From positions 3,527,001 through 3,591,000 of the forward strand of contig NZ_CP011797.1 in the NCBI RefSeq assembly GCF_002795845.1: DNA of 64,000 nucleotides, read 5' to 3'. Below are positions 40,924 to 62,385 of this stretch, one piece after another; the stretch's first letter is position 1, and every line of letters begins with the position of its first letter. Both the position numbers and the translations under genes were made by a program. Origin of the DNA: Reinekea forsetii (lineage in GTDB: Bacteria > Pseudomonadota > Gammaproteobacteria > Pseudomonadales > Natronospirillaceae). A model generated the notes under the pieces. That model searched no databases. It was given only the letters and a program-made list of their open reading frames with translations, and was not told the origin of the DNA.

Positions 40924-41742
40924 TTAGAGCGAGCGCAACATCCGCCGCGCGACCTCCACCATCCGGTCTTCCAAATCGCTGAATATTTCATTGCGATCGA
41001 AGCGCTCTGGGTGCTCGGCCAAAATAAGGCGCAGCTCGCGACCGAATTCGCGGCGCAGCTCGGTACCAATATTGTATTTGCAAATACCCGAAGAACGACC
41101 CAACTCAGCGCGTTGCTTGGGGTCGACACCGGAGCCACCGTGAATCACTAAGGGCACATCGGTTAGTGCCTCAATCTGGCGCAGCAAAACTTCATCGAGC
41201 CGGGTGACACTGTCCGTTTGCAGGTGCACATTGCCGATCGATACGGCCATCGCATCCACACCGGTGCGCTGGGCAAACAGCTGCGCCTCCTCTGCGTCGG
41301 TGCCCAAGGACGCCGCACCGGCGGCATAACCGACTTGACCGATCTCGCCCTCAACCCCGACTTTGAGGCCCTGGGCCAACTCAACCACGGCGCGTGTTTG
41401 GACAATATTGTCGAGTAGCGGCAGATGCGAGCCATCAAACATCAGACCGGTGAATCCGGCCGCCAGTGCGGCGCGACACTCATCGATGGAGCGTGAGTGA
41501 TCCAGATGCACGACCACCGGCACGCTCACGCTATCGGCCACATGGCACATCATGGCACCCAAGATCGGCAGCGGCGTGTGCTTGCGACAACCCGGTCCGG
41601 CCTGCAAAATAAGCGGTCGCCGTTCGGCTTCCGCCGCCCGAGCATAGCCGCGCATATCTTCCCAGCCGAGGCACACCACGCCGGCCACGGCATAGTGGTT
41701 ACGCGCGGCATCCTGCAGTACGTCGCGCAGATTGGCGATCAT
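40924..41742 (-). CDS. iolJ: Class II (FbaA/IolJ-like) aldolase
   Basis: A 272-residue class II aldolase. Zinc-site residues appear in VVVHLDHSRS (H82 with catalytic D81), VSIGNVHLQT and LVIHGGSGVD. In inositol catabolism IolJ splits 2-deoxy-5-keto-D-gluconate 6-phosphate into dihydroxyacetone phosphate and malonic semialdehyde; tagatose- and fructose-bisphosphate aldolases are close relatives, so the assignment rests on the neighbours. Its ATG overlaps the stop of the IolB-like gene (ATGA). Module 2 carries no such gene but has a DUF2090 domain fused to its IolC. Confidence 0.85.
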   Translation of the reverse strand: MIANLRDVLQDAARNHYAVAGVVCLGWEDMRGYARAAEAERRPLILQAGPGCRKHTPLPILGAMMCHVADSVSVPVVVHLDHSRSIDECRAALAAGFTGLMFDGSHLPLLDNIVQTRAVVELAQGLKVGVEGEIGQVGYAAGAASLGTDAEEAQLFAQRTGVDAMAVSIGNVHLQTDSVTRLDEVLLRQIEALTDVPLVIHGGSGVDPKQRAELGRSSGICKYNIGTELRREFGRELRLILAEHPERFDRNEIFSDLEDRMVEVARRMLRSL

Positions 41743-42581
41743 TTGAACGCAGACCACATCGACTTCATACCCGGAATGGTCTCTAACTGACCGGCATGCT
41801 CGGCCTGAAAATGCGGCGTTAAACCGCGCTTGGTTAAGCCACCGAGAATGGTGAAGTAATACATCTGATAGCCGGGCAAAACGCAGCAGGGGTGATAGCC
41901 CTTATCGATAATAAAGGTCGAGCCGTCGACCACGTGAAAGGCCGCGCCGGGCTCACCATCGGTCGCTTGCAACATTTGCAGAGCAGAACCGTTGTTCGGT
42001 TTAAAACGAAAATTATAGGTTTCATCGTGGTGCGTCTCGGCATCGCCGCGATCGTCGGAATGCTTGTGACTCGGGAAGCCGGACCAACCGCCCTCGCCCA
42101 CAGTAAAGAGTTCTGACACCAACAAGAGGCCAACCCGACCCTGCTGTTTCATGCCGAGAATGTGTTTTATTTTACGATGGGTCTTGGTGTCATCCGAACC
42201 GTATTGAATCACATCGACATCATCGGCAAAGACCGCAAAGGGCTCCAAGACTTGATCAAACTTGGCACCGGCGATAAAGATTTCGGCCTGCTCGGAGTCA
42301 CAGACAATTTCCGCGGCCATGGCGGTAGGCACGTAAATGCCTTCCGGCTCGGCGTCCCAGACATCTTCACTGCGCAGACCGATCTGACCGATCGCATTGC
42401 CCTCGACCGACACGCTGATGCGCCCAGTGGCCGGCACGATACAGGTTTCATAGCCGGCCACACTGTATTGAAAGACTTCACCGCGCTTGAGTTTCACTAT
42501 ATTAAAATAGTTCAGTGGCACGCGATCGTGGTCGACGTCAACGATCGGTTTGTTCTGATTATCAAAGGGTTTAATGTGCAT
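41739..42581 (-). CDS. IolB-like 5-deoxy-glucuronate isomerase, divergent paralogue
   Basis: A 280-residue bicupin of the IolB/KduI type. C-terminal landmarks are HHDETYNFRFKPNNGSALQM, FIIDKGYHPCCVLPGYQMYY and the metal-site histidines around GFPSHKHSDDRGD. Compared with the canonical IolB at 55.6-56.5 kb it has the same domain plan but quite different sequence, for example GYHPCCVLPGY against GYHPVGAPHGY. It starts at 42581 inside the kinase stop (TGATG) and ends overlapping the aldolase start. It may isomerise a product made from a different cyclitol. Confidence 0.8.
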   Translation of the reverse strand: MHIKPFDNQNKPIVDVDHDRVPLNYFNIVKLKRGEVFQYSVAGYETCIVPATGRISVSVEGNAIGQIGLRSEDVWDAEPEGIYVPTAMAAEIVCDSEQAEIFIAGAKFDQVLEPFAVFADDVDVIQYGSDDTKTHRKIKHILGMKQQGRVGLLLVSELFTVGEGGWSGFPSHKHSDDRGDAETHHDETYNFRFKPNNGSALQMLQATDGEPGAAFHVVDGSTFIIDKGYHPCCVLPGYQMYYFTILGGLTKRGLTPHFQAEHAGQLETIPGMKSMWSAFK

Positions 42582-43573
42582 CACAGATCTCCAATAGGAT
42601 GTTGGTCGGCCGAGTGGGCCGCCTGAAATTCGTTGAGTTCGGCCAGGGTTGGCATCGCCGGGGCACAACCCACGCGGGCCACCACAATGGCGGCACAGGC
42701 ACTGGCCTGGAGCAGCGCCGTCGCGAAGGGTTCGGCGCGTGACAGACTCGCCAACAACCCGCCTAAGAATGCGTCACCGGCGCCAATGGGTTTGAGCGCA
42801 GTAACCGAGTAGATGCCGGTCTCGATGGCCGGACCCTGCGGGGCAAAGGCCAGCGAACCCTGGGCTCCACGCTTATAGATGACCCACTTGTTGCGCAACG
42901 CCAGCGAGCGCGCATAGGCCTCGCCCTGGGCATAGCTGCCGGACATATGACCAAACTCATCGTCGTTGCCGACTAGCAGGTCAACGCACTCGACCGCCTG
43001 TTGATAAACCTCCAGCGCGGCACTGGCGCTCTGCCAAGAGTAAGGCCGATAATCCAGATCAAGCACAGTGAGCACACCGGCGGCCTTGGCACGCTTCAAG
43101 GCCAAGAGCGTGGCGGCCCGAGACGGCTCGAGCGTTAGACACGTACCGGTGACCACGACCGCACGGAAACGACTGAAATCGATCGCCTCGATGTGCGCAA
43201 CGCTCATCTGAAAGTCAGCCGCCTGATTGCGATAAATAACGGTTTGCTGGTTTTCGATGCGCGATTCGGCCAAGGCCAGGCTGGTGCGGACGTCGCCGTC
43301 GAGTGTATGAAGGAGATCTGTCGCGATGCCATAATTCGCCAATTGCTGCACCACAAAGCGCCCGACCGCGTCATTGGAGACCGACGTGGCGAGCCAGGTC
43401 GGCTGTTCAAATCGGCTCAGCGCGGCGGCAATGTTGCCACTGGAACCACCCAGCTCGGCGCTAAAGTTGGTCGCCTCTTCAATACGAGTGCCGGGCGGAT
43501 GTGGATAAAGATCCATTCCGGCCCGGCCCATAACCAAAAACGGTAGGTCTGACGACGCCAGAATGGATAACAC
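42581..43573 (-). CDS. iolC: PfkB-family sugar kinase (IolC-like)
   Basis: A 330-residue ribokinase-fold kinase. FLVMGRAGMDLYPHPPGTRI and AELGGSSGNIAAALSRF near the N terminus match IolC; the anion-hole and catalytic base motif is PIGAGDAFLGG. It should phosphorylate 2-deoxy-5-keto-gluconate. The GTG start abuts the iolD stop. It lacks the DUF2090 extension present in the module 2 homologue and is instead followed by a separate class II aldolase gene. Confidence 0.88.
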   Translation of the reverse strand: MLSILASSDLPFLVMGRAGMDLYPHPPGTRIEEATNFSAELGGSSGNIAAALSRFEQPTWLATSVSNDAVGRFVVQQLANYGIATDLLHTLDGDVRTSLALAESRIENQQTVIYRNQAADFQMSVAHIEAIDFSRFRAVVVTGTCLTLEPSRAATLLALKRAKAAGVLTVLDLDYRPYSWQSASAALEVYQQAVECVDLLVGNDDEFGHMSGSYAQGEAYARSLALRNKWVIYKRGAQGSLAFAPQGPAIETGIYSVTALKPIGAGDAFLGGLLASLSRAEPFATALLQASACAAIVVARVGCAPAMPTLAELNEFQAAHSADQHPIGDL

Positions 43574-45436
43574 TTAGACCCCCTTGCGCTGACGGGCGCG
43601 ACCGGATTCAACTTCTTTATGCCCGGCGGTAACGCTGGCCGAATTGGAAATGGCTGGCGTGCCCACTTCCCACCAGGCGTGACCCTCGGTGGTCCAACCG
43701 TCATAGGGATCGACGTTCATCACGATGACATAGGTATTGGTCGAGGCTTTAGCGCGCAGAAAAGCCGCTTGCAACTGATCGACTGTGTCGACCCGCTCAG
43801 AGGTGGCACCCATACTCTGCGCATGGGCGGCAAAATCGACCCGATGCTGATTACTGGCGGTGGGCGTATCGGCAATGAGATTGTTATAGCTTTCATTACC
43901 CTTGCCCTTCTGCAGCTTATTGATCACCGCGAAGCCGCCATTATCCAGCACCATGATGATCAGTTTCTTCTCGGTCAGCACGGCGCTGTAAATATCCGAG
44001 TTCATCAACAGATAGGAGCCATCACCGGTCCACACAATGGTGTCACTGTCGGGCTGGGTTTCACTCTGGGCAATACGGGCGCCCCAACCACCGGCGATCT
44101 CATAACCCATGCAACTGAAACCGAATTCGATATCCACCGAGCTGGTTGCCAAGGTGCGCCAATTGGCCGCCAGTTCCGCCGGCAAGCCACCGGCGGCAGC
44201 CACGATACGGTCCTCAGGACTGCACATGCCATTGATCACGCCAATCACCTGGGCGTAACGGTTAGGACCCTGTTGACTGTCGGTGTTGCGCGCGCGGATC
44301 AACGCCCAGCTGGCATTTTCGTGCGCTGCCGTGGCCAGCCAAGCAGGGCTGCTGTGAAACGCACCCATTAGGGCGGACAGGGCCGGTAAACTCTCTTTCG
44401 CGCCGGCCACGACTGCCGTACCCCGATGCTTGAGCGCATCGAATCGTGCCGGGTTGATCTTGATTAACGCCGACTCTAGGGCAAACACGCTCCACGAACC
44501 GGTGGTAAAATCCTGCAGGCGCGTGCCAACGCAGAGCACCACGTCGGCCAGATTGGCTAAATTATTGGCCGACTCCGAACCGGTGACACCAATTGGGCCG
44601 CAGTTCAGCGGATGGTCCCAGAGCAAGTTGGCGCGCCCGGCGATGGTCTCGACCACCGGAATCTGATGCCGTTCGGCGAAGGCACGCAATTCCTCGATGG
44701 CATCACCATATTGCACGCCACCACCGGCGATAATAAGCGGCGTCTTGGCCTTAGCTAAGGCTTGTGCGGCCTGCTCCAGTTCGACCGGGTCGGGCATGAT
44801 GGCGCGCACACGGTGCACCACCGGTTCAAAAAATGACACCGGATAATCGTAGGTCCAACCCTGCACGTCCTGCGGCAAGCCGATAAAGGCAGGGCCGCAA
44901 TCGGCCGGATCCAACATGACCCCAAGCGCTTGCGGCAAAGACTGCAAAATTTGCGCGGGGTGGGTAATGCGGTCCCAATATCGGGTCACAGCCTTAAAGC
45001 TATCGGTGACCCCCAAGCTGGGGTTGTTGAAATGCTCGACCTGCTGCAGCACCGGATCGGGCAACCGGGTCAAGAAGTTATCACCACACAACATTAGCAT
45101 GGGTAACCGATTGGCCATTGCCAAGGCGGATGAGGTTACTAAATTCGCGGTACCGGGACCGGCGGATGCGGTACAAAACATAAAGCGCTTGCGCCGATAA
45201 AACTTGGCATAGGCCGCCGCAGCAAAACCCATAGATTGCTCATGTTGACCGCGATAAAGCGGCAGCTTGTCATGCGCTTCATACATCGCCTCACCCAGGC
45301 AGGTAACATTGCCATGGCCAAAGATACCGAACCCGCCGCCACAGATACGCTGGCGTTCGCCATCAAGCTCGATCCATTGGTTCTCGAGGTACTTTATGAT
45401 CGCTTGTGCTGTGGTTAAGCGTACCGTTTCAGACAT
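43574..45436 (-). CDS. iolD: 3D-(3,5/4)-trihydroxycyclohexane-1,2-dione hydrolase
   Basis: A 620-residue thiamine-diphosphate enzyme. The cofactor-activating Glu is E66 (YRGQHEQSMGFAAAAYAKF), and the metal/diphosphate motif is GDGSYLLMNSDI ... LDNGGFAVIN. Length and N terminus (TTAQAIIKYLENQWIELDGE) match IolD, which opens the ring of the diketone made by IolE. It is the only iolD in the window, so both modules would have to use it. It is the first gene of the minus-strand operon, with GGGAG before its ATG and a palindromic operator upstream. Confidence 0.95.
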   Translation of the reverse strand: MSETVRLTTAQAIIKYLENQWIELDGERQRICGGGFGIFGHGNVTCLGEAMYEAHDKLPLYRGQHEQSMGFAAAAYAKFYRRKRFMFCTASAGPGTANLVTSSALAMANRLPMLMLCGDNFLTRLPDPVLQQVEHFNNPSLGVTDSFKAVTRYWDRITHPAQILQSLPQALGVMLDPADCGPAFIGLPQDVQGWTYDYPVSFFEPVVHRVRAIMPDPVELEQAAQALAKAKTPLIIAGGGVQYGDAIEELRAFAERHQIPVVETIAGRANLLWDHPLNCGPIGVTGSESANNLANLADVVLCVGTRLQDFTTGSWSVFALESALIKINPARFDALKHRGTAVVAGAKESLPALSALMGAFHSSPAWLATAAHENASWALIRARNTDSQQGPNRYAQVIGVINGMCSPEDRIVAAAGGLPAELAANWRTLATSSVDIEFGFSCMGYEIAGGWGARIAQSETQPDSDTIVWTGDGSYLLMNSDIYSAVLTEKKLIIMVLDNGGFAVINKLQKGKGNESYNNLIADTPTASNQHRVDFAAHAQSMGATSERVDTVDQLQAAFLRAKASTNTYVIVMNVDPYDGWTTEGHAWWEVGTPAISNSASVTAGHKEVESGRARQRKGV

Positions 45437-45481: not shown

Positions 45482-45499
45482 TTTGCAACCGGTTGCAAA
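45482..45499. promoter_or_regulatory. LacI-type operator between iolD and the dehydrogenase gene
   Basis: TTTGCAACCGGTTGCAAA is a perfect 18-base palindrome with the central CG pair of LacI-family operators. It lies in the 73-base gap between divergent operons and can block both. The same core occurs at 54102-54117. Confidence 0.75.
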
Positions 45500-45509: not shown

Positions 45510-46613
45510 ATGAAAATAATAAATGTGGGGGTTATTGGTGGCGGATATATGGGTAAAGCCCATTCTGTCGCGGCGCGCAGCGTCAGTGCGGTCTTCGAAC
45601 TCGACGCTGAGATCGTATTGGCGGGCATCGCGGCATCCTCGCCCGCCAGCGCACAACGCTATGCCAAAAAGTTTGACGCGAGAATAGCTTTCGATAGCCC
45701 AGAGGAGCTGATCAACTCCGATCTGATCGATGCGGTGATTATCGCCTCGCCGCAGGACACCCACCTAGACTATGTACGCGCTTGCGCTGCAGTCGGCAAG
45801 CCGGTGCTGTGCGAGAAACCCATGGGCCGCAATACCGCCGAGGCGGCCGAGATTGCCCTAGCGGCCAAGGATATAGTCAATCTGGTCGGCTACAATTACA
45901 TCAACACGCCCGCCACGGCCCATGCGCGCCAGCTGATTGCCGATGGCGCGATCGGCGACATCACCTGGTTTCGCGGCGAGCACAATGAAGACTTTATGGC
46001 CCCAATTGGCTCCGGCGATGGCAATTGGCGCCTGCTCGGCGATGCCAATGGCACACTCGGCGATCTCGCACCCCATATGCTGCAGTGCGCCCTAACCCTA
46101 TGTGGACCGATCAACGCACTGGTCGCCGATATCACCAGCCGACCCGAAGTACGCGATCAAGATCCGAGCACGCCGTGCAATGACGACCAGGTGCAACTGA
46201 TGACCCGATTCGCCAACGGTGCCAACGGCCTGTTGTCGTTTTCGCGCGTCGCACATGGCTGCAAGATGCGCTACGCCTATGAGATCCATGGCACCCGCGG
46301 CAGCTTGCGCTTCGATCAAGAAGATCAGAACTCACTTTGGCTCTATCAACCCGAAGATGGACCGAACGCCGGTTTCAAACGCATTCTGGCCGGCCCGGAT
46401 CACGGTGACTACGGCTATTTTTGTCAGGGCCCCGCGCACGGCACCGGCTTTCAAGACCAAATTATTATTGAACAAGCCAACTTCTTTAAGGCGATTCTGT
46501 CCAATACCGTCGCGTGGCCATCGTTCGATGACGGCGTTGCCGTGATGCGGGTCATGGATGGTATTAGAGCATCCCACAAGACCTCCGGCTGGATCAGCCT
46601 TGCAAACAATTAA
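45510..46613 (+). CDS. Gfo/Idh/MocA-family dehydrogenase (module 1, first copy)
   Basis: A 367-residue NAD(P)-dependent oxidoreductase. The dinucleotide motif is VGVIGGGYMGKAHS at the N terminus and the catalytic EKP motif is VLCEKPMGRN; a C-terminal alpha/beta domain follows. Related enzymes oxidise myo-, scyllo- or chiro-inositol or related sugars. It begins 11 bases after the operator, with only a weak AGAG ribosome site. The two genes behind it follow at 18 and 9 bases. Stereochemistry cannot be read from sequence. Confidence 0.88.
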   Translation: MKIINVGVIGGGYMGKAHSVAARSVSAVFELDAEIVLAGIAASSPASAQRYAKKFDARIAFDSPEELINSDLIDAVIIASPQDTHLDYVRACAAVGKPVLCEKPMGRNTAEAAEIALAAKDIVNLVGYNYINTPATAHARQLIADGAIGDITWFRGEHNEDFMAPIGSGDGNWRLLGDANGTLGDLAPHMLQCALTLCGPINALVADITSRPEVRDQDPSTPCNDDQVQLMTRFANGANGLLSFSRVAHGCKMRYAYEIHGTRGSLRFDQEDQNSLWLYQPEDGPNAGFKRILAGPDHGDYGYFCQGPAHGTGFQDQIIIEQANFFKAILSNTVAWPSFDDGVAVMRVMDGIRASHKTSGWISLANN

Positions 46614-46631: not shown

Positions 46632-47522
46632 ATGGCAATACGTATTGGTAACGCGCCCTGCTCTTGGGGTGTTGAATTTGCGGACGATCCCCGTAATCCA
46701 CCCTGGCAACAGGTGTTACAAGATTGTGCGGCGGCCGGTTATCGCGGCATCGAGTTAGGCCCCGTGGGCTACCTACCCGAAGATCGGTCGCAACTCGACG
46801 ACGCCTTACAAAAAGAAGACCTGACCTTAACGGCCGGTGTGGTGTTCCAACCCTTCCACGATCCCGATGGCTTCGCAGACGTTTTCAAGACTGCGGAACG
46901 AACCGCTAACGCTTTGGCCTCTCAGGGTGCTCAGCACCTGGTGCTGATCGACTCGATATCAGCGCGGCGCGCACCGACGGCTGGACGCCCATCTGAGGCC
47001 GAGCAACTGAGCAGCAGTGAATGGCAGGGCTTTGTCGAGCGCATCAAAACCGTTGCAAAGATGGCGCGGGACGGCTATGGCCTAACGGTCAGCATCCACA
47101 GTCATGCGGCAGGCTTTATGGACTTCCATGATGAACTTGAGCGCTTGATGCAGGAGGTCGACGCCGATCTGCTTAAGTTGTGCATCGATACTGGGCATCA
47201 AACCTACGCCGGATTCGACCCGATTAACTTTATGGAGCGCTATTACGATCGTTTGGCCTATGTCCATTGCAAGGACATCGATCCTAAGATCAAAGCCGAT
47301 GTGATCCTTCAGCGCACCGACTTTTATAAAGCCTGTGGCGACGGTATCTTCTGCAACCTCGGCCAGGGTGAAGTGAAGTTCGATGCATTGCACAAATTAC
47401 TTACCCAACGTGGTTATCAAGGTTGGATGACCGTCGAGCAGGATTGCGATCCGTTGCTCGAGGTGTCACCCCTGAGCGATGCCATAGCCAACCGCGAATT
47501 TTTAGCCAGTATGGGCTTTTAG
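46632..47522 (+). CDS. Sugar phosphate isomerase/epimerase of the IolE/IolI type
   Basis: A 296-residue TIM-barrel protein of the AP-endonuclease-2 superfamily. The start MAIRIGNAPCSWGVEFADDP, the central HLVLIDSIS..R, and metal-site blocks CIDTGHQTYAG, YVHCKDID and MTVEQDCDP are visible. It resembles a group of IolE/IolI-like proteins found in actinobacterial and proteobacterial inositol clusters rather than canonical IolE (58.9-59.8 kb). It may dehydrate or epimerise the inosose made by the neighbouring dehydrogenases. Confidence 0.8.
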   Translation: MAIRIGNAPCSWGVEFADDPRNPPWQQVLQDCAAAGYRGIELGPVGYLPEDRSQLDDALQKEDLTLTAGVVFQPFHDPDGFADVFKTAERTANALASQGAQHLVLIDSISARRAPTAGRPSEAEQLSSSEWQGFVERIKTVAKMARDGYGLTVSIHSHAAGFMDFHDELERLMQEVDADLLKLCIDTGHQTYAGFDPINFMERYYDRLAYVHCKDIDPKIKADVILQRTDFYKACGDGIFCNLGQGEVKFDALHKLLTQRGYQGWMTVEQDCDPLLEVSPLSDAIANREFLASMGF

Positions 47523-47531: not shown

Positions 47532-48665
47532 ATGACAACAATAAACTGGGGCTTAATCGGCGGTGGCCGAGGCAGTCAGATTGGACCGGCGCATCGGCTT
47601 GCGGCGCGGCTCGATGGCCTCTATAACTTTACCGCCGGCGCACTAGACCATCGCGCCGAGGAGGGTCGAGCCTATGGCCAAGAGCTCGGGTTGGAGCCAA
47701 GCCGAAGCTATGGTGACTGGCGCGAAATGCTTGCCGGCGAGTCTGCACGGGCCGACCGGGTGGACCTGGTCACGGTTGCCACGCCGAACAATACCCACTT
47801 TGAGATCACTAAGGCCTTTTTGGAGGCCGGCTTTAACGTTTTATGCGAAAAGCCGCTCACCATGACGCCGAAAGAAGCCCAAAGCCTAATCGGGGTGGCC
47901 CGCGAGAGTGGCAAAATATGCGCCGTCAATTATGGCTACACCGGTTACGCCTTAGTGCGTCATATGCGTGCCATGGTCGCGCGCGGAGATATCGGCAAGG
48001 TGCGCATGGTCTTTACCGAGTTCGCCCACGGTCATCATGCCGATGCCGCCGATGCCGATAATCCGCGCGTGCGCTGGCGCTATGATCCGGAGATGGTCGG
48101 TGTCTCGGCGCAATTCGCCGACTGCGGCATTCATGCCTTGCACCTGGCCACCTTTGTCACCAATCAGCGCGTTGAACGCCTCTCGGCGGACTGCGTCAGC
48201 CTGATCCCGAGCCGAACCCTGGAGGATGATGCGATGGTTAATTTTCGCATGTCTGAAGGCACCGTCGGTCGTCTCTGGACCTCTTCCTGCGCGCTCGGTC
48301 GGCAACATGGCTTGGGCATTCAGGTGTTTGGTGAAACCGGCGGGTTGCGCTGGACCCAAGAGCAACCGAACCAGCTCTTTTACACCCCGCTGGGCGGCCG
48401 AACGCAGATCATCGAACGCGGTGAGGGCGGTTTATCACCTGAGGCCGATCGCTCCAGTCGAGTGACCATCGGTCATTCCGAAGGCATGCCCCTGGCCTTT
48501 GGCAATATCTACTCTGAACTGGCCACCGCAATTCATGCGCTTAAGGCTGGTCAAACTCCGGACTTGGGCTTGGTGCCCTTGGTCGAAGCCGGGGCAGACT
48601 CCATCAGTGCGATTGCCGCAGTGGCCCGCTCTGGCAACAATAATGGTCAGTGGGTCGAGCTCTAG
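47532..48665 (+). CDS. Gfo/Idh/MocA-family dehydrogenase (module 1, second copy)
   Basis: A 377-residue oxidoreductase with the N-terminal nucleotide motif INWGLIGGGRGSQIGPAHR and catalytic NVLCEKPLTMT. A histidine-rich stretch (FAHGHHADAADADNPRVRWR) lies in the substrate domain. It belongs to a distinct subgroup from the first copy (which starts VGVIGGGYMGK), so the two probably act on different positions or isomers. It ends the plus-strand operon; the LacI gene is convergent. Confidence 0.85.
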   Translation: MTTINWGLIGGGRGSQIGPAHRLAARLDGLYNFTAGALDHRAEEGRAYGQELGLEPSRSYGDWREMLAGESARADRVDLVTVATPNNTHFEITKAFLEAGFNVLCEKPLTMTPKEAQSLIGVARESGKICAVNYGYTGYALVRHMRAMVARGDIGKVRMVFTEFAHGHHADAADADNPRVRWRYDPEMVGVSAQFADCGIHALHLATFVTNQRVERLSADCVSLIPSRTLEDDAMVNFRMSEGTVGRLWTSSCALGRQHGLGIQVFGETGGLRWTQEQPNQLFYTPLGGRTQIIERGEGGLSPEADRSSRVTIGHSEGMPLAFGNIYSELATAIHALKAGQTPDLGLVPLVEAGADSISAIAAVARSGNNNGQWVEL

Positions 48666-48754: not shown

Positions 48755-49774
48755 TTAGCTGAGAGCCTTGGGCAAGGTATCGCGCTCGATGATTTGGCAC
48801 GGCAACAGCTTAGCGCTGGGCTGATAGGCCTCTTTCGATTGCAGCTGGGCTTGCAAACACTCTACCGTTACCTCAACAATCTGGGCCAGTGGCTGGGCCA
48901 CCGTGGTTAGGCGAATATTGTCCCACGCCGCCATCTCAACATTATTAAAACCAATAATGCCCACCGCTTCGGGTACTTGGATACCGCCACGGCGCAACGC
49001 GCTCATAGCACCGATAGAGACCACATCATCACCGCAAAAATAGCCCTGCGCTAGTTCACCGGCCATTAACCCCTGCATCGCCTCAAAGCCGCCTTCGAAA
49101 CTATAGGTTTGCGAATAACCAATTTGAAACTGGACCCCCGCATGTTCTTCAACAACATCCATAAAGCCCGCCAAACGATCGCGTGTCGAGGTTGAGCTCT
49201 CAGGCCCGCCTAGGAAGCCAACACTCTGGTAACCACAAGCCAGTAGACGGCGCGCTGCGATTCGTCCGGCTTCCCGGTTATCGATGCCAACCACATCAAA
49301 GTCACCATCATTGTCGCGGCCGAAGGCATGCACCACCGGCAAGCCCGCTTCGGCAAAGGCGCTGGCAAAGCTGATCGGCAGGGTTGAGGTCGCCACCACC
49401 ACAGCATCAACCTGATATTGCATCAATAGATCCAGACTGCGCAGCGGCTCGACTTCATCGGTGAGGTTAATTAACAGGGTGCGCAACCCGCGCGCTTGCA
49501 GCAGGCGGGTAAAGATATCGAACCACTCAAGGTAGACGGGATTGTGAAAGTTGTTGGCCACCAGACCGACCAGACCGGTCTGGCCGGTGGTCAGACTGCG
49601 CGCTAATATATTAGGTCGGTAGCCCAGTTCCTTAGCCGCCTCGCGCACCCGCAACAAGGTACTCGGCGCGACGGACGCCCCGACGGTAAAGCTGCGCGAA
49701 ACAGCACTGCGGCTAACGCCGGCAAGCTTAGCAACCTCTGCTAGCGTGACACGATTCTTCGTTGTTCGAGACAC
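48755..49774 (-). CDS. LacI-family repressor of module 1
   Basis: A 339-residue regulator. The DNA-binding part is VTLAEVAKLAGVSRSAVSRSF and the hinge is PNILARSLTTGQ; the effector domain follows (FLGGPESSTSTRDRL, IGIIGFNNVEMAAWDNIRLTT). The start codon is GTG (MSRTTKNRVT). Its place after the module 1 genes and the presence of LacI-type palindromes at 45482 and 54102 make it the likely owner of those sites. The ligand is probably an inositol isomer or a pathway intermediate. Confidence 0.88.
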   Translation of the reverse strand: MSRTTKNRVTLAEVAKLAGVSRSAVSRSFTVGASVAPSTLLRVREAAKELGYRPNILARSLTTGQTGLVGLVANNFHNPVYLEWFDIFTRLLQARGLRTLLINLTDEVEPLRSLDLLMQYQVDAVVVATSTLPISFASAFAEAGLPVVHAFGRDNDGDFDVVGIDNREAGRIAARRLLACGYQSVGFLGGPESSTSTRDRLAGFMDVVEEHAGVQFQIGYSQTYSFEGGFEAMQGLMAGELAQGYFCGDDVVSIGAMSALRRGGIQVPEAVGIIGFNNVEMAAWDNIRLTTVAQPLAQIVEVTVECLQAQLQSKEAYQPSAKLLPCQIIERDTLPKALS

Positions 49775-54237: not shown

Positions 54238-54267
54238 AATAATTTAGAATAAATATTCTAAATTATT
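54238..54267. promoter_or_regulatory. Long inverted repeat upstream of the transporter (RpiR/IolR-type box)
   Basis: AATAATTTAGAAT (54238-54250) and ATTCTAAATTATT (54255-54267) are perfect 13-base inverted arms around AAAT. The core TAGAA-N6-TTCTA (54245-54260) recurs twice before iolB/iolC. The rest of the 370-base region between the transporter and rpiR genes shows nothing further. Confidence 0.65.
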
Positions 54268-54374: not shown

Positions 54375-55211
54375 TTATGCCTTGGCGCGATTCGGATCGG
54401 TCAGACCTATGGCCAACGCCTGAGCCACGCAGAGCGAAGCCGACAAGGACCGAATGCCATGAATCGACGCTTCTTGCACCGCCAGGACCGCAGTCGCCTG
54501 TGCCGCAAGTGGGCTTAAGTGGCTGTCGGTGATCAGTACCACGGGTATGCCGCGGGCAAAGGCATCGCGGGCAACGTTCTGCGTTTCTTGGCCATAGGGA
54601 TGAAAACTGATCGCGATGAGAACATCATTTGCGCCCATTGAGCTGGCTTGCTCCTGCGTCAAGCCACCCACACCATCAATTAAAAACGCGCGCCGTTCCG
54701 CGTGACGCAGCGCATAGCCAAAATAAGAGGCGACAACAAAGGCCCGGCGCACGCCCATCACATAGATGGTCTGAGCGTCATTGAGCAGCTGCTCGGCCTT
54801 TTCAAGCTGAGCCAGGTCGACATCTGTCACCAGTTGGTCCAAGGCTGAGGAATTTGCTGCGGAAAACTGACGCAACAGGCTGATCGGGTTGGCATCAGCC
54901 TGGTCACCCTCGGACTCTCGGGCGATGCGCATTCTGTCGTTATAGCTAGGCGCCTCGGCGCGCAACTGCTCTTTGAATAGATTTTGCATTTCTGAAAAAC
55001 CACTGTAGCCAAAAGAGCTCGCAAAGCGCACGAGAGTGGACGGGTGCACCCCGGCATCACGCGCAATCACCACGACGGTGCCGAACGCAATTTCGTTGGG
55101 GTGATCGAGCAGGTACTGGGCGACCTGGAACAGGCGTTTACTCAAGTTTGTCTGGTTTGCCGTGATTTGCGCTTTAAGTTCAGCAAGCGTCTTAGCAGGC
55201 GGGTTTGTCAT
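54375..55211 (-). CDS. iolR: RpiR-family regulator of inositol catabolism
   Basis: A 278-residue regulator. An RpiR-type HTH (residues about 20-85: LSKRLFQVAQYLLDHPNEIA, VIARDAGVHPSTLVRFASSF) is followed by a SIS domain (about 125-260: IYVMGVRRAFVVASYFGYAL, ISFHPYGQETQNVARDAFA) that binds phosphosugars. Rhizobial IolR repressors have the same plan and lie in inositol clusters; a deoxy-ketogluconate phosphate is the usual inducer there. It probably binds the TAGAA-N6-TTCTA boxes nearby. The gene is transcribed toward the transporter genes. Confidence 0.88.
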   Translation of the reverse strand: MTNPPAKTLAELKAQITANQTNLSKRLFQVAQYLLDHPNEIAFGTVVVIARDAGVHPSTLVRFASSFGYSGFSEMQNLFKEQLRAEAPSYNDRMRIARESEGDQADANPISLLRQFSAANSSALDQLVTDVDLAQLEKAEQLLNDAQTIYVMGVRRAFVVASYFGYALRHAERRAFLIDGVGGLTQEQASSMGANDVLIAISFHPYGQETQNVARDAFARGIPVVLITDSHLSPLAAQATAVLAVQEASIHGIRSLSASLCVAQALAIGLTDPNRAKA

Positions 55212-55639: not shown

Positions 55640-56464
55640 CTAACGTGAGGCCTTCAACTTATCGGCTTCGATAATCCAGGCGTGATCCGGATCGTTGTGG
55701 AAAATCCACTCTCGCGCTGGCCCGGCCATCACATTGAGATAGTAAGAGGTATAGCCGTGTGGTGCGCCAACGGGATGGTAGCCCTCCGGTACCATAACCA
55801 CGCCGTGATTCTCAATCGCCATGGTCTCGTCAATCGAGCGATTGTCGGTATAGACGCGCTGGAAAACAAAGCCCTGATCCGGATCGATACGGTGGTAATA
55901 GGTCTCCTCAAGCTTGGTCTCCGTTGGCGCCAGATCCCGATCGTGCTTATGCGGCGGGTAGCTCGACCAGTTGCCATCGGGTGTGATGACTTCACAGACG
56001 AGTAGTTTTTCAGCCGCCATATTACCGAACAAAATATTGCATACGTGACGTTGATTGGTGCCGATGCCGCGTGTTTCAAATCGAGTATGAGCCGGGGTGA
56101 TCAGCCGGGCTGGGTACTGTCCCATGGCCGGCGCTGAACATACAGCAAGTTCCAAATCGGTTTCCGCAGTTACCTCGTAGGCATCCGACGGCGGCACATA
56201 AACCGCGTATGGCGCTTTTTGTTCGAATAGGCTGGTGCGTTCACCGATATGCGACCAAGACTCTTTTAGCGTCTTAACGCTCGCCTTGCCAGTGAGAATA
56301 ACCAGACAGACCTCATTGTTGAGGGAGTCGGCCTTGAGTGATCGCCCCGCCTTAAGCTTATAAACCTCGAAACCAACGTATTCCCAACCCGCTGACTCTG
56401 GCGTGATATGTTGAATTCGGCCATTTTGATCGGGCTCTGATACAGGTGACAGTAAACGAGACAT
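55640..56464 (-). CDS. iolB: 5-deoxy-glucuronate isomerase
   Basis: A 274-residue bicupin of the canonical IolB type: WEYVGFEVYKLKAG, TPDGNWSSYPPHKHD (metal histidines), LEETYYHRIDPDQGFVFQRV and VVMVPEGYHPVGAPHGYTSY. It converts 5-deoxy-glucuronate to 2-deoxy-5-keto-gluconate. The ATG at 56464 has GAGGGA upstream. It is divergent from iolC across a 360-base region with two regulator boxes. A divergent paralogue lies in module 1. Confidence 0.95.
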   Translation of the reverse strand: MSRLLSPVSEPDQNGRIQHITPESAGWEYVGFEVYKLKAGRSLKADSLNNEVCLVILTGKASVKTLKESWSHIGERTSLFEQKAPYAVYVPPSDAYEVTAETDLELAVCSAPAMGQYPARLITPAHTRFETRGIGTNQRHVCNILFGNMAAEKLLVCEVITPDGNWSSYPPHKHDRDLAPTETKLEETYYHRIDPDQGFVFQRVYTDNRSIDETMAIENHGVVMVPEGYHPVGAPHGYTSYYLNVMAGPAREWIFHNDPDHAWIIEADKLKASR

Positions 56465-56579
56465 AGTTTCCCTCAATTGGTTGGTTTGCTCTGGCACGTG
56501 ACGGACCCACAAACGATTCAGCGTGCGCGCTGATGTCGATCGATACTAAAGGCTCTTTGTTCAGGACTAAAGCTCTTTT

Positions 56580-56595
56580 TAGAATTTTTATTCTA
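56580..56595. promoter_or_regulatory. TAGAA-N6-TTCTA box, iolB side
   Basis: TAGAATTTTTATTCTA: the five-base arms, extending to TAGAAT/ATTCTA, match the arms of the box upstream of the transporter. It lies about 115 bases before the iolB start codon. Confidence 0.6.
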
Positions 56596-56711: not shown

Positions 56712-56727
56712 TAGAAAAAAAATTCTA
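56712..56727. promoter_or_regulatory. TAGAA-N6-TTCTA box, iolC side
   Basis: TAGAA, six A, TTCTA; flanking A and T extend the arms to six bases. It lies about 100 bases before the iolC start codon. Apart from the two boxes the iolB-iolC region is AT-rich and holds no gene. Confidence 0.6.
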
Positions 56728-56828: not shown

Positions 56829-58757
56829 ATGAGCGACCTAAAAAAGACTGTCGGTGCGCGTAATCTCGATATTATCTGTGTCGGCCGCGCCGCGGTAGAT
56901 CTGTATGGCCAACAGATCGGCGCTCGCTTAGAAGACATGGGCAGCTTTGCGAAATACCTCGGTGGCTCATCGGGCAACATTGCCTACGGCACCGCCCGCC
57001 TGGGTTTGCGCTCGGCCATGCTGACCCGCGTCGGTGACGAGCATATGGGTCGTTTTGTGCGCGAGGAGTTTGACGCTGCCGGCGTCGACACCAGCCATGT
57101 CATCACCGATAGCGAACGCCTAACCGGCCTGGTAATTCTGGGCATAAAAGATCGCGACACCTTCCCGCTCATTTTCTATCGTAACGACTGCGCCGATATG
57201 GCCTTAAGCAAAGACGATTTTACGCCAACCTTTATCGCCTCGAGTCGCTCACTGTTGATTACCGGTACCCACCTGTCTAAGCCTTCGACATTTCAGGCCT
57301 GTATGACCGCCATCGACTATGCCAAGGACGCCGGCACCAAGGTCGTGCTCGATATAGATTACCGCCCTGTACTGTGGGGGCTGACTGGCATGGGCGAGGG
57401 CGAGAACCGCTTTGTCTCCGATGCCAATGTCAGCAAGCACCTGCAAAGCGTCTTGCCTTATCTCGACCTGATCGTGGGAACCGAGGAAGAGGTGCATATA
57501 GCCGGCGGCACGACCGATACCATCGCGGCACTGAAAACCATTCGCCGACTCACCAATGCCACCATTGTCCTCAAGTTAGGCGCCCTGGGCTGTACCGTGC
57601 TCGACGGCGACATTCCGCCATCTGAGGCGGATTTCGATGTCTTCACAGGCGTTCGGGTCGATGTATTAAATGTGCTTGGGGCCGGCGATGCCTTTATCAG
57701 CGGCTTCTTACGCGGCTGGCTAAACGGCGAAGATCACCAAACCTGTTGCCAGTATGCCAATGCCTGCGGGGCGTTGGTGGTATCTCGTCATGGCTGTGCG
57801 CCGGCCATTCCGTCCGCCGAAGAGCTTGATTATTATATCGAACATGCCGCGGATATTGCTCGACCCGACACGGACCGCGAGCTCAACTATTTGCATCGAG
57901 TGACCACCCGGCGCAAAGCGAAGTGGCATGAAATATTCGGCCTGGCCTATGACCACCGAATTCAACTCTTTAATATGGCTCGAGAAACCGGCACCGATGA
58001 GCAGCGCATCAACCTACTTAAGCAGCTCTTGGTCAAGGCCACCCAGCACGGTGCCGACGCGGCCCAGCTCGATGGCAATATCGGAGTGCTGATCGATGAT
58101 ACCTATGGGCAAGAGGCGCTCAATGATCTCACCGGACGAGGCTGGTGGATCGGTCGGCCGGTCGAGTTGCCGACCTCTAACCCCATTGAATTGGAAGGCG
58201 GACGGTCGATCGGCAGCCGATTGCGCGAGTGGCCGCTGGAGCATGTGGTCAAGTGCTTAATCTTCTACCATCCCGACCAGCCGCAAGAGCAGCGCAATCT
58301 GCAAGAGCGTCAGGCCAAGGAACTCTACGAAGCCTGTTGCGTCTCTGGTCACGAGTTACTGCTCGAACTGATCCCGCCTCGAGAGCTGGCACAGGATGAA
58401 GACACCTTGGTGCGGTCGCTGCAACGATTCTACAATCTGGGCATTCGACCCGACTGGTGGAAGCTGCCGGCACCCTCTGCGGCCACTTGGGCTAAGTTGA
58501 CTCAATTGATTCAGGCCCGAGCGCCGCATTGCCGCGGTATTCTGTTGTTAGGCCTGGATGCCCCTATTGAAGAGCTCAAGCGCGACTTTGCCAACTCCGC
58601 CGGGTTTGATATCTGCAAAGGCTTTACCGTCGGGCGGACCCTTTGGGCCAAGGAGAGCTATCGCTGGTTGGCGAATGAGATTAGTGACGAACAATTTATC
58701 GAACAGGTCGGCAATAACTACTTCGATCTGATTCAACACTGGCGGAATCGCGGTTAG
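56829..58757 (+). CDS. iolC: IolC-DUF2090 fusion: 5-dehydro-2-deoxygluconokinase with aldolase-like domain
   Basis: A 642-residue two-domain protein. Residues 1-330 are the PfkB kinase IolC (IICVGRAAVDLYGQQIGARL, KYLGGSSGNIAYGTARLG, NVLGAGDAFISGF). Residues about 345-642 are a DUF2090 domain (KWHEIFGLAYDHRIQLFNMA ... GILLLGLDAP ... GFTVGRTLWAKESYRWL), a TIM-barrel aldolase-type fold. Such fusions occur in proteobacterial inositol clusters lacking iolJ, so the second half probably replaces the aldolase IolJ. Both domains look intact. iolE follows after 98 bases. Confidence 0.93.
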   Translation: MSDLKKTVGARNLDIICVGRAAVDLYGQQIGARLEDMGSFAKYLGGSSGNIAYGTARLGLRSAMLTRVGDEHMGRFVREEFDAAGVDTSHVITDSERLTGLVILGIKDRDTFPLIFYRNDCADMALSKDDFTPTFIASSRSLLITGTHLSKPSTFQACMTAIDYAKDAGTKVVLDIDYRPVLWGLTGMGEGENRFVSDANVSKHLQSVLPYLDLIVGTEEEVHIAGGTTDTIAALKTIRRLTNATIVLKLGALGCTVLDGDIPPSEADFDVFTGVRVDVLNVLGAGDAFISGFLRGWLNGEDHQTCCQYANACGALVVSRHGCAPAIPSAEELDYYIEHAADIARPDTDRELNYLHRVTTRRKAKWHEIFGLAYDHRIQLFNMARETGTDEQRINLLKQLLVKATQHGADAAQLDGNIGVLIDDTYGQEALNDLTGRGWWIGRPVELPTSNPIELEGGRSIGSRLREWPLEHVVKCLIFYHPDQPQEQRNLQERQAKELYEACCVSGHELLLELIPPRELAQDEDTLVRSLQRFYNLGIRPDWWKLPAPSAATWAKLTQLIQARAPHCRGILLLGLDAPIEELKRDFANSAGFDICKGFTVGRTLWAKESYRWLANEISDEQFIEQVGNNYFDLIQHWRNRG

Positions 58758-58855: not shown

Positions 58856-59755
58856 ATGACGGTACGCATCGGTATTAACCCGCTGACCTGGACCAACGAC
58901 GATCTTCCCGCCTTAGGTGCGGATACATCGCTGGAAACCTGCCTTTCCGAGGGCAAGCTGGCCGGTTACAGCGGCTTCGAACTGGGTCAGAAATTTCCTC
59001 GCCAAGCTGAGATTCTCAGCCCTATTCTCGACGCCCATGGCCTGGTACTGGTCTCGGGCTGGTACAGCAGCCTACTGCTGGAGCGCAGCGTTGAGGATGA
59101 GATCGCCGCGCTACAGGATCATCTGAACTTACTCAAGCAACTGGGCTCGACCGTAATGGTCTATTGCGAGGTCAGCCGCTGCATCCATGGCGATCTGGAC
59201 ACCCCGGTCAGCAAGCGTCCGAAGATGACCGAGGCTGAATGGCCGGAGTTTCTTACGCGGATCAACAAGGTCGGCGAATACCTACAAAGCCAAGGCGTGG
59301 CCTTGGCTTACCACCACCATATGGGCACGGTAATTGAGACCGAGGACGATATCGATCGCCTGATGGCCGGTACCTCCGAGGCCGTCGGTCTGTTACTCGA
59401 CTCTGGCCACCTAACCTTTGCCGGCGGGGATGTTGTTGCGGTCGCAACCCGACATGCGCAGCGTATCAAGCACGTGCACTGCAAGGATGTTCGTAAGGCA
59501 GTGTTAGCGGACAGTAAAAACCGTAATTTGAGCTTCTTAAATTCGGTTTTGAATGGCACCTTTACTGTGCCCGGCGACGGCTTTATTGACTATCCGGCTG
59601 TTTTTGCGGTGCTCAAGTCGCATAACTACAGCGGTTGGCTAGTCGTTGAGGCCGAACAGGATCCTGCTGTGGCGCATCCCCTGACCTATGCCAAGCTGGG
59701 CCATGCCAACCTGAGCCGACTCTGTGCCGACGCCGGTATTGACGTCGACGCTTAG
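58856..59755 (+). CDS. iolE: Inosose dehydratase
   Basis: A 299-residue TIM-barrel enzyme of canonical IolE type: IGINPLTWTNDDLPALGADT, CLSEGKLAGYSGFELGQKFP, LAYHHHMGTVIETEDDIDRL, LLLDSGHLTFAGGD and HVHCKDVR. It dehydrates 2-keto-myo-inositol to the trihydroxycyclohexanedione used by IolD. GAGGAG precedes the ATG. It is second in the iolC-iolE transcript. Module 1 carries a more distant IolE/IolI-like protein. Confidence 0.94.
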   Translation: MTVRIGINPLTWTNDDLPALGADTSLETCLSEGKLAGYSGFELGQKFPRQAEILSPILDAHGLVLVSGWYSSLLLERSVEDEIAALQDHLNLLKQLGSTVMVYCEVSRCIHGDLDTPVSKRPKMTEAEWPEFLTRINKVGEYLQSQGVALAYHHHMGTVIETEDDIDRLMAGTSEAVGLLLDSGHLTFAGGDVVAVATRHAQRIKHVHCKDVRKAVLADSKNRNLSFLNSVLNGTFTVPGDGFIDYPAVFAVLKSHNYSGWLVVEAEQDPAVAHPLTYAKLGHANLSRLCADAGIDVDA

Positions 59756-59847: not shown

Positions 59848-60762
59848 TCAACTATTGGCTTCGGACGCCGGTAACTCACTGCTGGTTTCAACACTGATGT
59901 GCTTGAGAAACTCAATCGCCGTCGCGATGCGCGGTATCCGCTCAGTCGTCGGGTGGTACACCAGATAGAACTCTCGTTCCACCTCCACCTCCGGCAGTAA
60001 GCGAATCAGCTCGTCATTGGCATTGAGCAAAAACCGATGCAACATCCCGATACCGGTACCGGCACGGACGGCCTCGACCTGGCCAATCGGCGAGTAGATG
60101 GATATTTGCGATTGCCATGCCGACCAGGCCGATTTAGGGGTGTTAAGCCTATCCGAGAAGAGTAGATCTTCGACATAGCCAACCAAGCGATGGTCGGCGA
60201 GTGCCTCAATGGAGTCAGGATAGCCGCGCCTGGCCAGGTAGTCGGGCGAGGCAAACAGGCCCAAGTTATAGGTTGCTAAGGGTGTGTAGCGCAATTTTGC
60301 TTCCGTCGGTTTGCCCACCATGATGGCTATATCGGCTTCTCGACGAGAAAGCGAAAAACCCCGCAATTGCGGCACAATCTCAACCCGTAACTCAGGGTTA
60401 GCATCCAATAAGCCATTCAGCTGGGGTGCTAACACCTTCAGCGCAAAGCCCTCCGGTGCGGCAATGCGCACTGTGCCACTGACCGAGGTCGGGTCGGAGC
60501 CGAAGATCTCACCCGCGGCCTCGATTTCGGCTTCGGCTCGCTCTAAATACACCAACAGGCGCTGTCCCTCGTCGGTGAGCGTCAGTCCCTTACTGTGACG
60601 GGTAAAGAGGGCAGTACCGGTGCGGGACTGCAGATGGGATAGATGACGGGACAAGGTAATGGACGCAATACCTAGGGTATCGGCCGCACGCCCCATGGTG
60701 CCGGAGCGGGCAACGGCTAAGAAATAGCGCGCGTCTTCCCAATTGAAACGATTCCGACTCAT
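59848..60762 (-). CDS. LysR-family regulator divergent from mmsA
   Basis: A 304-residue LysR protein. The N-terminal winged HTH is WEDARYFLAVARSGTMGRAA then LGIASITLSRHLSHLQSRTG; the effector domain follows (VRIAAPEGFALKVLAPQLNG, LRYTPLATYNLGLFASPDYL). It lies divergent from mmsA with a 120-base gap holding a perfect ATGATGCATCAT palindrome, so control of mmsA is likely. Convergent with iolE. Confidence 0.88.
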   Translation of the reverse strand: MSRNRFNWEDARYFLAVARSGTMGRAADTLGIASITLSRHLSHLQSRTGTALFTRHSKGLTLTDEGQRLLVYLERAEAEIEAAGEIFGSDPTSVSGTVRIAAPEGFALKVLAPQLNGLLDANPELRVEIVPQLRGFSLSRREADIAIMVGKPTEAKLRYTPLATYNLGLFASPDYLARRGYPDSIEALADHRLVGYVEDLLFSDRLNTPKSAWSAWQSQISIYSPIGQVEAVRAGTGIGMLHRFLLNANDELIRLLPEVEVEREFYLVYHPTTERIPRIATAIEFLKHISVETSSELPASEANS

Positions 60763-60807: not shown

Positions 60808-60882
60808 ACAGGAATTATTTTACATTGTTATATCACTTTTGATGGCATTTAATAGGACCCAACCAAACAACGGAGAAGAACC

Positions 60883-62385
60883 ATGTCGGTCATAGGTAAC
60901 TTTATCGGCGGCGAACGCGTCGCATCCACGTCGGGCCGCACTGGACCGGTTTACAATCCAGCCACCGGTGCGCAAATAGCCACCGTCGCCCTGTCCAGCG
61001 CAGACGAGACCCGTGCAGCTATTGCCAATGCAGAAGCCGCTTTCAAAATCTGGAGCAAGGTAACGCCACTCAACCGCGCACGCGTCATGTTCAAATACAA
61101 AGAACTGATCGAAAAGCATGCCGATGAGATTGCCACCCTGATTTCACAAGAGCACGGCAAGGTCTTCTCCGACGCCAAGGGTGAACTGACCCGCGGCCTG
61201 GAAGTGGTTGAATTCGCCTGTGGCATCCCGCACTTACAAAAGGGTGAGCACAGTCTGAATGTTGGCCGTGGTGTTGACAGCTACAGCCAGATGATGCCGA
61301 TGGGTGTCTGTGCGGGCATCAGCCCCTTTAACTTCCCGGCCATGGTGCCGATGTGGATGTTTCCGGTCGCGATCGCCTGTGGCAACACCTTTATTATGAA
61401 ACCGTCTGAAAAAGATCCGTCAACGCCACTGCGTTTGGCTGAATTGCTCAAAGAGGCCGGTCTACCCGATGGTGTCTTCAATATTGTCAACGGCGACAAA
61501 GAAGCCGTAGACGTCCTGTTAACAGATGAGCGGATTCAGGCGGTCAGTTTTGTCGGCTCGACACCTATTGCTGAATACATCTATTCAACAGCCAGTGCCC
61601 ACGGCAAGCGTGTTCAGGCATTGGGTGGTGCAAAGAACCATATGATCGTTATGCCCGATGCGGAACCATCGCAGGTGGTCAACTCGCTGATGGGTGCGGC
61701 ATATGGATCGGCTGGCGAACGCTGCATGGCGATCTCGGTAGCCGTCTGTGTTGGTGATGAAGTGGCCGACCACCTGATCAAAGACCTCAGCGAGAATATC
61801 GCCACCATGACAGTTGGTGCGGGCATCAGCGACGGTCCAGAGGCACATATGGGCCCGCTCATTACCCGTGAACATGCCGATAAGGTGCTCGGTTTCATTG
61901 ACTCGGGCGTCGCTGAAGGTGCAACCCTGGTTGTCGATGGTCGCAACTTTGTCGTTTCTGGCCATGAAAATGGCTATTTTGTCGGACCGACCCTGTTCGA
62001 CAACGTCAAGGCCGGTATGCGTATTTATCAGGAGGAGGTCTTTGGACCGGTTCTCTGTGTGGTTCGAGTGAATAGCTATGAAGAAGCCTTAAACCTGATC
62101 AACGCTCACGAATATGGCAATGGTACGGCAATCTTCACACGCGACGGCGACACCGCACGTAACTTCGTTGAGAACGTCCAGGTAGGCATGGTCGGGGTTA
62201 ACGTCCCAATCCCCGTGCCAATGGCGTTCCACAGCTTTGGTGGCTGGAAGCGCTCACTGTTCGGCCCGTTGCATATGCATGGCCCAGATGGTGTGCGTTT
62301 CTATACCCGCATGAAGACCATTACCGCGCGTTGGCCGACCGGCCTGAGCGCGGGTCCGGAATTCACCATGCCCACGATGAAGTAA
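60883..62385 (+). CDS. mmsA: CoA-acylating (methyl)malonate-semialdehyde dehydrogenase
   Basis: A 500-residue aldehyde dehydrogenase of the MmsA/IolA group: VIGNFIGGERVASTSGRTGP, GVCAGISPFNFPAMVPMWMF, VSFVGSTPIAEYIY and the catalytic Cys in AYGSAGERCMAISVAV. The usual general-base Glu of hydrolytic aldehyde dehydrogenases is not in the corresponding ALGGAKNHM segment, as expected for CoA-dependent enzymes. It converts malonic semialdehyde from the aldolase step to acetyl-CoA and CO2. It is the last step of inositol breakdown and could equally serve valine catabolism. Confidence 0.95.
   Translation: MSVIGNFIGGERVASTSGRTGPVYNPATGAQIATVALSSADETRAAIANAEAAFKIWSKVTPLNRARVMFKYKELIEKHADEIATLISQEHGKVFSDAKGELTRGLEVVEFACGIPHLQKGEHSLNVGRGVDSYSQMMPMGVCAGISPFNFPAMVPMWMFPVAIACGNTFIMKPSEKDPSTPLRLAELLKEAGLPDGVFNIVNGDKEAVDVLLTDERIQAVSFVGSTPIAEYIYSTASAHGKRVQALGGAKNHMIVMPDAEPSQVVNSLMGAAYGSAGERCMAISVAVCVGDEVADHLIKDLSENIATMTVGAGISDGPEAHMGPLITREHADKVLGFIDSGVAEGATLVVDGRNFVVSGHENGYFVGPTLFDNVKAGMRIYQEEVFGPVLCVVRVNSYEEALNLINAHEYGNGTAIFTRDGDTARNFVENVQVGMVGVNVPIPVPMAFHSFGGWKRSLFGPLHMHGPDGVRFYTRMKTITARWPTGLSAGPEFTMPTMK

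Follow-up and report, generated by a model that had tools for sequence, protein, structure and literature searches.

The DNA analysed here (the window) is a 64,000-nt stretch of Reinekea forsetii, NZ_CP011797.1 positions 3,527,001-3,591,000, in which we focused on positions 40,924-62,385. With a probability of about two in three, the genes of this region form a composite inositol regulon, in which two unlike enzyme sets would be served by a common transporter/IolG operon and by one IolD. The first set, module 1 (LacI, GfoA, IolE', GfoB, IolD, IolC', IolB' and an FBA-type aldolase), would be an inositol pathway widespread in Rhodobacterales. The second, module 2 (RpiR/IolR, IolB, IolC-DUF2090 and IolE), would correspond to the IolR-type module known from the literature, except that it has no iolD of its own in the window. 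We regard the arrangement as real: a known pathway in composite form, in which a single IolD is a recurrent pattern, and not a wholly new pathway. An earlier interpretation made from the letters of this DNA (the sequence-only reading) had proposed an undescribed system. That was too strong: the database record of the Ruegeria TM1040 cluster names iolD, iolC, iolG and 5-deoxy-glucuronate isomerase in module 1, and an RpiR/IolR module with its palindrome is published (PMC2597717). Among the open-licence papers listed, no title or abstract start describes such a composite arrangement, which is weak evidence of absence.

Two enzyme sets and a single iolD

Families were called from profile scores against equivalog cut-offs (TIGR/NF models) and from Pfam domains, and enzyme activities were predicted from these. 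The genes are the following.

40924..41757, minus strand: class II FBA-type aldolase (IolJ-like); PF01116; motifs HLDH, GNVH, IHGG, NIGTE
41739..42581, minus strand: IolB', divergent 5-deoxyglucuronate isomerase; TIGR04378 140.7 bits, under the cut-off of 205
42581..43573, minus strand: IolC', 5-dehydro-2-deoxygluconokinase without DUF2090; TIGR04382 306.9 bits, cut-off 300
43574..45436, minus strand: IolD; TIGR04377 766.4 bits, cut-off 715
45510..46613, plus strand: GfoA, scyllo-inositol dehydrogenase type; best PDB sequence match 5ya8, 2.5e-68
46632..47522, plus strand: IolE', divergent inosose dehydratase; TIGR04379 179.9 bits, under the cut-off of 290
47532..48665, plus strand: GfoB, second Gfo/Idh dehydrogenase; best PDB sequence matches 3v5n, 7d5m, 7d5n, 3dty; motifs EKP, DCGIH
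48755..49774, minus strand: LacI-family regulator of module 1; PF00356, Peripla_BP_3
50010..51014, minus strand: IolG, myo-/D-chiro-inositol dehydrogenase type; TIGR04380 428.8 bits, cut-off 355; motifs GFNRRFD, YGY
51093..51863, minus strand: sugar ABC transporter ATPase; family match
51878..53041, minus strand: sugar ABC transporter permease; PF02653
53048..54001, minus strand: sugar-type substrate-binding protein (SBP); PF13407; best PDB sequence match 4yo7
54375..55211, minus strand: RpiR-family regulator, IolR-like; PF01418 and SIS domains
55640..56512, minus strand: canonical IolB; TIGR04378 362.7 bits, cut-off 205
56829..58757, plus strand: IolC-DUF2090 kinase/aldolase fusion; NF047869 911.1 bits, cut-off 600; PF09863
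58758..58855, no strand: 98-bp gap at the position of canonical iolD in the nearest relative (comparison with locus L108)
58856..59755, plus strand: canonical IolE; TIGR04379 424.7 bits, cut-off 290
59848..60762, minus strand: LysR regulator; family match
60883..62385, plus strand: MmsA, CoA-acylating (methyl)malonate-semialdehyde dehydrogenase; TIGR01722 701.4 bits, cut-off 448.5

All genes that the sequence-only reading had named are intact open reading frames (ORFs) at the positions it gave and have family support, and its statement that the IolB, IolC and IolE functions are duplicated in unlike versions held: B and E of module 2 exceed their cut-offs, B' and E' of module 1 do not, and IolC' lacks DUF2090. 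With B, C and E of module 2 and C and D of module 1 over cut-off, the locus falls within the definition of an IolCatGC as at least three of iolB, C, D and E with genes at most 10 kb apart (PMC9430895). The most likely start of IolB' is at 42581 (MHIKPF), matching locus L016. The aldolase at 40924..41757 is probably the 5-dehydro-2-deoxyphosphogluconate aldolase; we take its listed motifs to be catalytic. Recent transfer was considered on base composition and rejected, the G+C content of the genes (0.51-0.61, as compared to 0.563 in positions 1-39000) giving no clear anomaly.

A single IolD exceeds the TIGR04377 cut-off in the whole genome (one 3.66 Mb contig); a genome-wide search found no second one, the runner-up scoring 232 bits. 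One IolD over cut-off agrees with the earlier claim that IolD occurs once; within the cluster, MmsA and the transporter also occur once. In the genome of the nearest relative (G096) the two blocks lie on separate contigs and each has its own IolD, the canonical one being located between IolC-DUF2090 and IolE (L108); the same order was observed in L112, L114, L116, L117 and L126. At this point the window has only the 98-bp gap, in which tblastn revealed no remnant of canonical iolD. The simplest interpretation is that this lineage has lost the gene.

In the proposed scheme inositol would enter through the common transporter. IolG, whose GFNRRFD and YGY motifs are linked in PMC9603128 with the myo and D-chiro isomers, would oxidise myo- (and D-chiro-) inositol, and GfoA, perhaps together with GfoB, would oxidise scyllo- or other isomers. 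The inosose would be dehydrated by IolE or IolE', its ring opened by the single IolD and the product isomerised by IolB or IolB'; phosphorylation and cleavage would be carried out either by IolC' and the FBA-type aldolase or by IolC-DUF2090, and the last step by MmsA.

Module 1 in other genomes and the recurrent single IolD

A scan with IolB' gave 131 relatives, of which 80 were kept (loci L016-L095, 65-77% identical). By record title these are mostly Rhodobacterales, with SAR116, Granulosicoccus, Bauldia and one Oceanospirillaceae metagenome-assembled genome, the last being the closest. No close copy was found in 95 other genomes of the window's order: ten matched at 25-30% identity and six genomes of the same genus gave no match. 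The usual order in the 80 loci is LacI, GfoB-IolE'-GfoA, divergent IolD-IolC'-IolB'-aldolase, then IolG. Profile scores were compared in 44 genomes, 43 of them hand-picked from those of the 80 loci and the last being the window's. Over cut-off were canonical IolE in 9, IolB in 12, DUF2090 in 13 and IolD in all 44, and 26 had none of canonical IolB, IolE and DUF2090. In 25 of these 26 an IolG homologue (49-57% identical to the window's) is located in the same stretch. Because of these two counts module 1 usually seems to be self-sufficient and to work alone, and the suggestion that it is an isomer branch dependent on the myo-inositol machinery is not supported. The divergent IolB'/IolE' pathway of Rhodobacterales would be under-called by equivalog cut-offs, by which 26 of the 44 genomes would look iolB- and iolE-less.

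It could still be argued, in line with the sequence-only reading, that module 1 acts on another isomer or derivative of inositol (scyllo-, chiro- or methylated) and feeds into the myo-inositol route at the IolD step. We consider this possible but unlikely. Its assumption of a common ring opening agrees with our data, as one IolD seems to serve both sets, and further isomers are plausible since GfoA resembles scyllo-inositol dehydrogenase. When GfoA was aligned with the scyllo-inositol dehydrogenase 5ya8, seven of eight substrate or catalytic residues were kept (hand count), the eight being those given for LgdA in PMC5969746; the K-D-H triad, R178 and H318, which define the LgdA subfamily, are all present, and Y163 is not kept. 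GfoB would be an extra dehydrogenase, and its matches 3v5n and 3dty cluster with scyllo-inositol dehydrogenase in the same source. No paper for 7D5M/7D5N was found in the open-licence literature. Module 1 has a separate LacI regulator, and in Bacillus subtilis the LacI-family repressor IolQ controls a scyllo-inositol dehydrogenase (PMC5504672). The window's IolG is closer to copies from canonical clusters (66-72%) than to most module 1 copies (49-57%). Against all this, module 1 has a full lower pathway of its own, the sole recognisable route in the 26 genomes above, nearly all with an IolG homologue. An isomer branch appears possible for the dehydrogenases and unneeded for the remaining genes. 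Elsewhere in the same genome (L125, G000:C1:618001-638000) there are GfoB-like (38%) and IolE'-like (36%) genes, the latter scoring 155 bits with TIGR04379, under the cut-off.

The composite reading treats the duplicated enzymes as equivalent, and three comparisons bear on this. Among the alignment columns with 90% or more conservation in each of the two groups, those with the same and those with a different residue number 131 and 21 for IolD, 41 and 29 for IolB, and 30 and 13 for IolE. IolE' has H156, H158, D186, H189, H212 and E269 in common with IolE. Finally, an operon of Photobacterium sp. DA100 (L130) codes for IolE (422 bits), IolD (865) and IolC (375), all over cut-off, together with a relative of IolB' (164 bits, under cut-off; 52% identical to the window's), a class II aldolase and RpiR. 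With an IolB' relative encoded next to true IolE and IolD, this operon suggests that IolB' performs the ordinary step and favours same-function duplicates over separate isomer pathways. A protein of Rhizobium leguminosarum plasmid pRle248b (L129), 39% identical to IolB' and annotated as 5-deoxy-glucuronate isomerase, belongs to a cluster without iol character, whose other members include an oligopeptide-type ABC transporter, a glycosyl hydrolase and a mandelate racemase.

The recurrence of a single IolD was surveyed in 394 genomes of one family. An IolB-family match at 1e-30 was present in 214 of them (over the canonical cut-off in 168), and 115 had at least two. The first 80 of these 115 were examined and 75 hold IolB' at 62-71% identity; having been selected for both IolB types, the 75 are unfit for testing IolB retention. 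By identity to the window's IolD, types of 61-69, 50-53 and 43-49% were distinguished, with partial matches counted and two 38% matches left out. Module 1 IolD is present in 29 of the 75 genomes and was not found in 46, of which 41 have canonical IolD, three the third type only and two none. Both types occur in nine genomes and module 1 IolD alone in 20; DUF2090 is also absent from 19 of these 20, leaving canonical IolB there without its module. IolD loss therefore also runs the opposite way to that in the window, 41 of 75 genomes having canonical IolD and no module 1 IolD. IolE' accompanies module 1 IolD in all 29 genomes that have the latter, and it was also found in 29 of the other 46. An IolB' tree of 58 rows (36 with module 1 IolD, 21 lacking it, one unscored) requires at least seven changes of IolD state, the absence in L057 being judged from the extracted stretch only. 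On a plasmid of Aestuarium zhoushanense both sets are adjacent in a mirror-image cluster, and the stretch has a single IolD, of the canonical type, and a single transporter. This would be a recurring natural experiment, in which a single enzyme, IolD, becomes common to two co-resident pathways. Three plasmid stretches from Pantoea and Qingshengfaniella (L131, L132, L133) have IolD-IolE-SDR with a hydroxyacid dehydrogenase, an aldolase/citrate lyase family protein and succinate-semialdehyde dehydrogenase; neither IolB nor IolC was seen in them, and they possibly represent another inositol route after IolD.

Predicted operators, uptake and a possible entry enzyme

The module 2 without iolD, the recurrent single-IolD pattern, the operators and the PhyH neighbour all go beyond the sequence-only reading. 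The predicted sites are these.

45483..45498, no strand: LacI-type operator TTGCAACCGGTTGCAA in the divergent iolD/gfoA promoter; perfect palindrome
54102..54117, no strand: second LacI-type operator, 100 bp upstream of the start of SBP; perfect 16-mer
54245..54260, no strand: IolR-type site TAGAATAAATATTCTA upstream of SBP; pattern match
56580..56595, no strand: IolR-type site 1, iolB/iolC divergent promoter; pattern match
56712..56727, no strand: IolR-type site 2, iolB/iolC divergent promoter; pattern match

The LacI-type sequence was first spotted in the iolD/gfoA promoter region. Allowing up to three mismatches adds to its two perfect copies a single match at 6515, with 0.33 expected in all, and the exact 16-mer recurs in 67 of the 80 loci L016-L095 (hand count). 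The pattern TAGAA-N6-TTCTA, taken from the window prior to the search, is perfect at 54245, 56580 and 56712 and has a one-mismatch copy inside lysR (0.57 expected). In the canonical clusters that were read, related sites stand close to the genes for RpiR, IolB/IolC or the transporter (TGGAA-N6-TTCCA in G096), and the window's sites resemble the published IolR palindrome GGAA-N6-TTCC (PMC2597717), by which an IolR regulon would be recognised at iolC, idhA and transporter promoters. In L016, position 7064 carries the 14-base core of the LacI-type site; IolR-type sites precede iolG and a gene upstream of SBP.

The transporter/iolG operon of the window has both types of site. Because iolD has the LacI-type site only, module 2 should function only when the LacI block is expressed as well. 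The common uptake may be under both repressors, which makes this a candidate promoter where repressors of two families meet at a single transporter. The sequence-only reading had assigned the transporter and iolG to module 2, but the unit cannot be tied to that module only. In 40 of the 80 module 1 stretches there is an ATPase with 75-88% identity to the window's copy (hand count; some stretches are truncated and others have a different ABC type), and the same type accompanies canonical clusters L116, L151, L153 and L156, together with an IolG of 68-72% identity. The window's IolG is 80% identical to that of L016. That the unit belongs to module 1 alone was also considered, and was dropped on account of the canonical clusters. 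It appears common to both modules, kinship assigning it to neither, and 'shared' is a fair word. The best PDB match of SBP, 4yo7, was presumably solved with myo-inositol.

A gene at 39579..40808 (plus strand), convergent to the module 1 aldolase, codes for a PhyH-family Fe(II)/2-oxoglutarate (2OG) oxygenase (PF05721) that may belong to the inositol set. H198, D200, H291 and R303 are invariant in ten aligned sequences. Homologues (42-56% identity) were found in 46 of 79 other genomes, in 18 of the 46 (Rhodobacterales) within 10 kb of an iol gene; at most 0.6 copies would be expected, a comparison in which iol positions are incomplete and relatives are not independent. The remaining 28 showed no link to iol genes. 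The gene often has canonical IolB as its neighbour (L148, L157, L180 and L183-L190 are examples), and it adjoins a gene that looks LacI-like by sequence in 13 of the 32 PhyH regions read. The predicted structure is of middling quality (mean predicted local distance difference test score 72.7); the 50 matches listed are Fe/2OG-type oxygenases and give no hint of substrate. No PDB relative was found by sequence at 0.01, and none of the open-licence papers listed for PhyH with inositol or pinitol is on bacterial catabolism. Our guess would be that it demethylates or hydroxylates a cyclitol. More speculatively, it might be a new entry enzyme converting modified cyclitols (O-methyl- or deoxy-inositols) to inositols in concert with canonical IolB and both modules, and the cell might keep two enzyme sets and two repressors for sensing and processing different cyclitol inputs through one IolD; we think this rather improbable, and flag the oxygenase as a candidate entry step. 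Positions 36627-39350 contain a 907-aa ORF with neither an NCBIfam match nor a Pfam match at 0.001.

Weighing the composite regulon against rivals and known systems

Several points weigh against the composite regulon. The equivalence of IolB' to IolB and of IolE' to IolE is presumed, and both IolB' and IolE' score under their equivalog cut-offs. A quick tree was built from 50 rows, the full 24 of canonical IolB and 26 of the 104 of IolB'. In it IolB' forms one side of a very long branch (SH-aLRT 100, length 5.94), with canonical rows from Bacillota on the other, and the tool flagged that long branches meet at this split. The Photobacterium record has three IolB-family places, so that it may have a canonical IolB outside this operon. 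Same-function redundancy leaves the retention of both lower halves unexplained. IolE' was not found in 17 of the 46 genomes without module 1 IolD, so that the pattern may be one of module decay, and many of the genomes are drafts. The transporter type, as described, also stands beside canonical clusters. As to regulation, one of 100 shuffles also gave four matches to the IolR-type pattern, a copy of which lies within lysR; the window's sites read AGAA-N6-TTCT and not GGAA-N6-TTCC; GGAA-N6-GGAA gave no match, with 2.28 expected by chance; and LacI and RpiR are paired with their predicted sites by position. The order of events, like these pairings, is inferred.

Decay might also have affected module 2 itself, which would then be a remnant contributing nothing once iolD was gone. 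Partial canonical modules do exist: G119 keeps IolG, IolC-DUF2090 and an IolB fragment, and G328 keeps RpiR, IolC-DUF2090, PhyH and IolB, with no IolD or IolE in between. In the window, however, the genes for IolB, IolC-DUF2090, IolE and RpiR are all intact, their products have 65-81% identity to the G096 copies, and three perfect IolR-type sites remain, which makes this explanation improbable. Still less probable are two stereochemical lanes through a promiscuous IolD, with IolE', IolB', IolC' and FBA for one diastereomer series and IolE, IolB and IolC-DUF2090 for the other: the greater divergence of IolB and IolE than of IolD between the sets and the 29 of 46 genomes that keep IolE' without module 1 IolD would fit it, but the Photobacterium hybrid operon, the 17 genomes in which IolE' was not found and the passing of the same kinase cut-off by IolC' speak against it.

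The composite regulon combines features of known systems. With the Caulobacter/alphaproteobacterial IolR myo-inositol module, as described in PMC2597717, the window shares an RpiR-family SIS regulator, iol genes, an ABC transporter and a dehydrogenase; it differs in the outer bases of the palindrome (AGAA-N6-TTCT for GGAA-N6-TTCC), in the absence of iolD from the block and in the additional LacI-type operator of the transporter operon. As in module 1, IolC without DUF2090 and a class II aldolase are found in the Bacillus-type iol operon of a Peribacillus plasmid cluster; the genes there are named iolB and iolE, whereas IolB' and IolE' of the window are under the equivalog cut-offs. GfoA shares K106, Y135, E165, R178, D191, H195 and H318 with LgdA of Paracoccus laeviglucosivorans, whose gene likewise lies in a putative inositol gene cluster (PMC5969746); Y163 of LgdA is replaced by His in GfoA, whose activity is predicted. 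The Rhodobacterales inositol cluster, for example that on the Ruegeria TM1040 megaplasmid, has LacI, two Gfo/Idh proteins, a TIM barrel protein, IolD, IolC, IolB' and a class II aldolase as in the window. It too has iolG and a sugar ABC transporter, but its ATPase is only 37% identical to the window's, in which a different ABC type stands, with iolG, between the LacI block and the IolR module.

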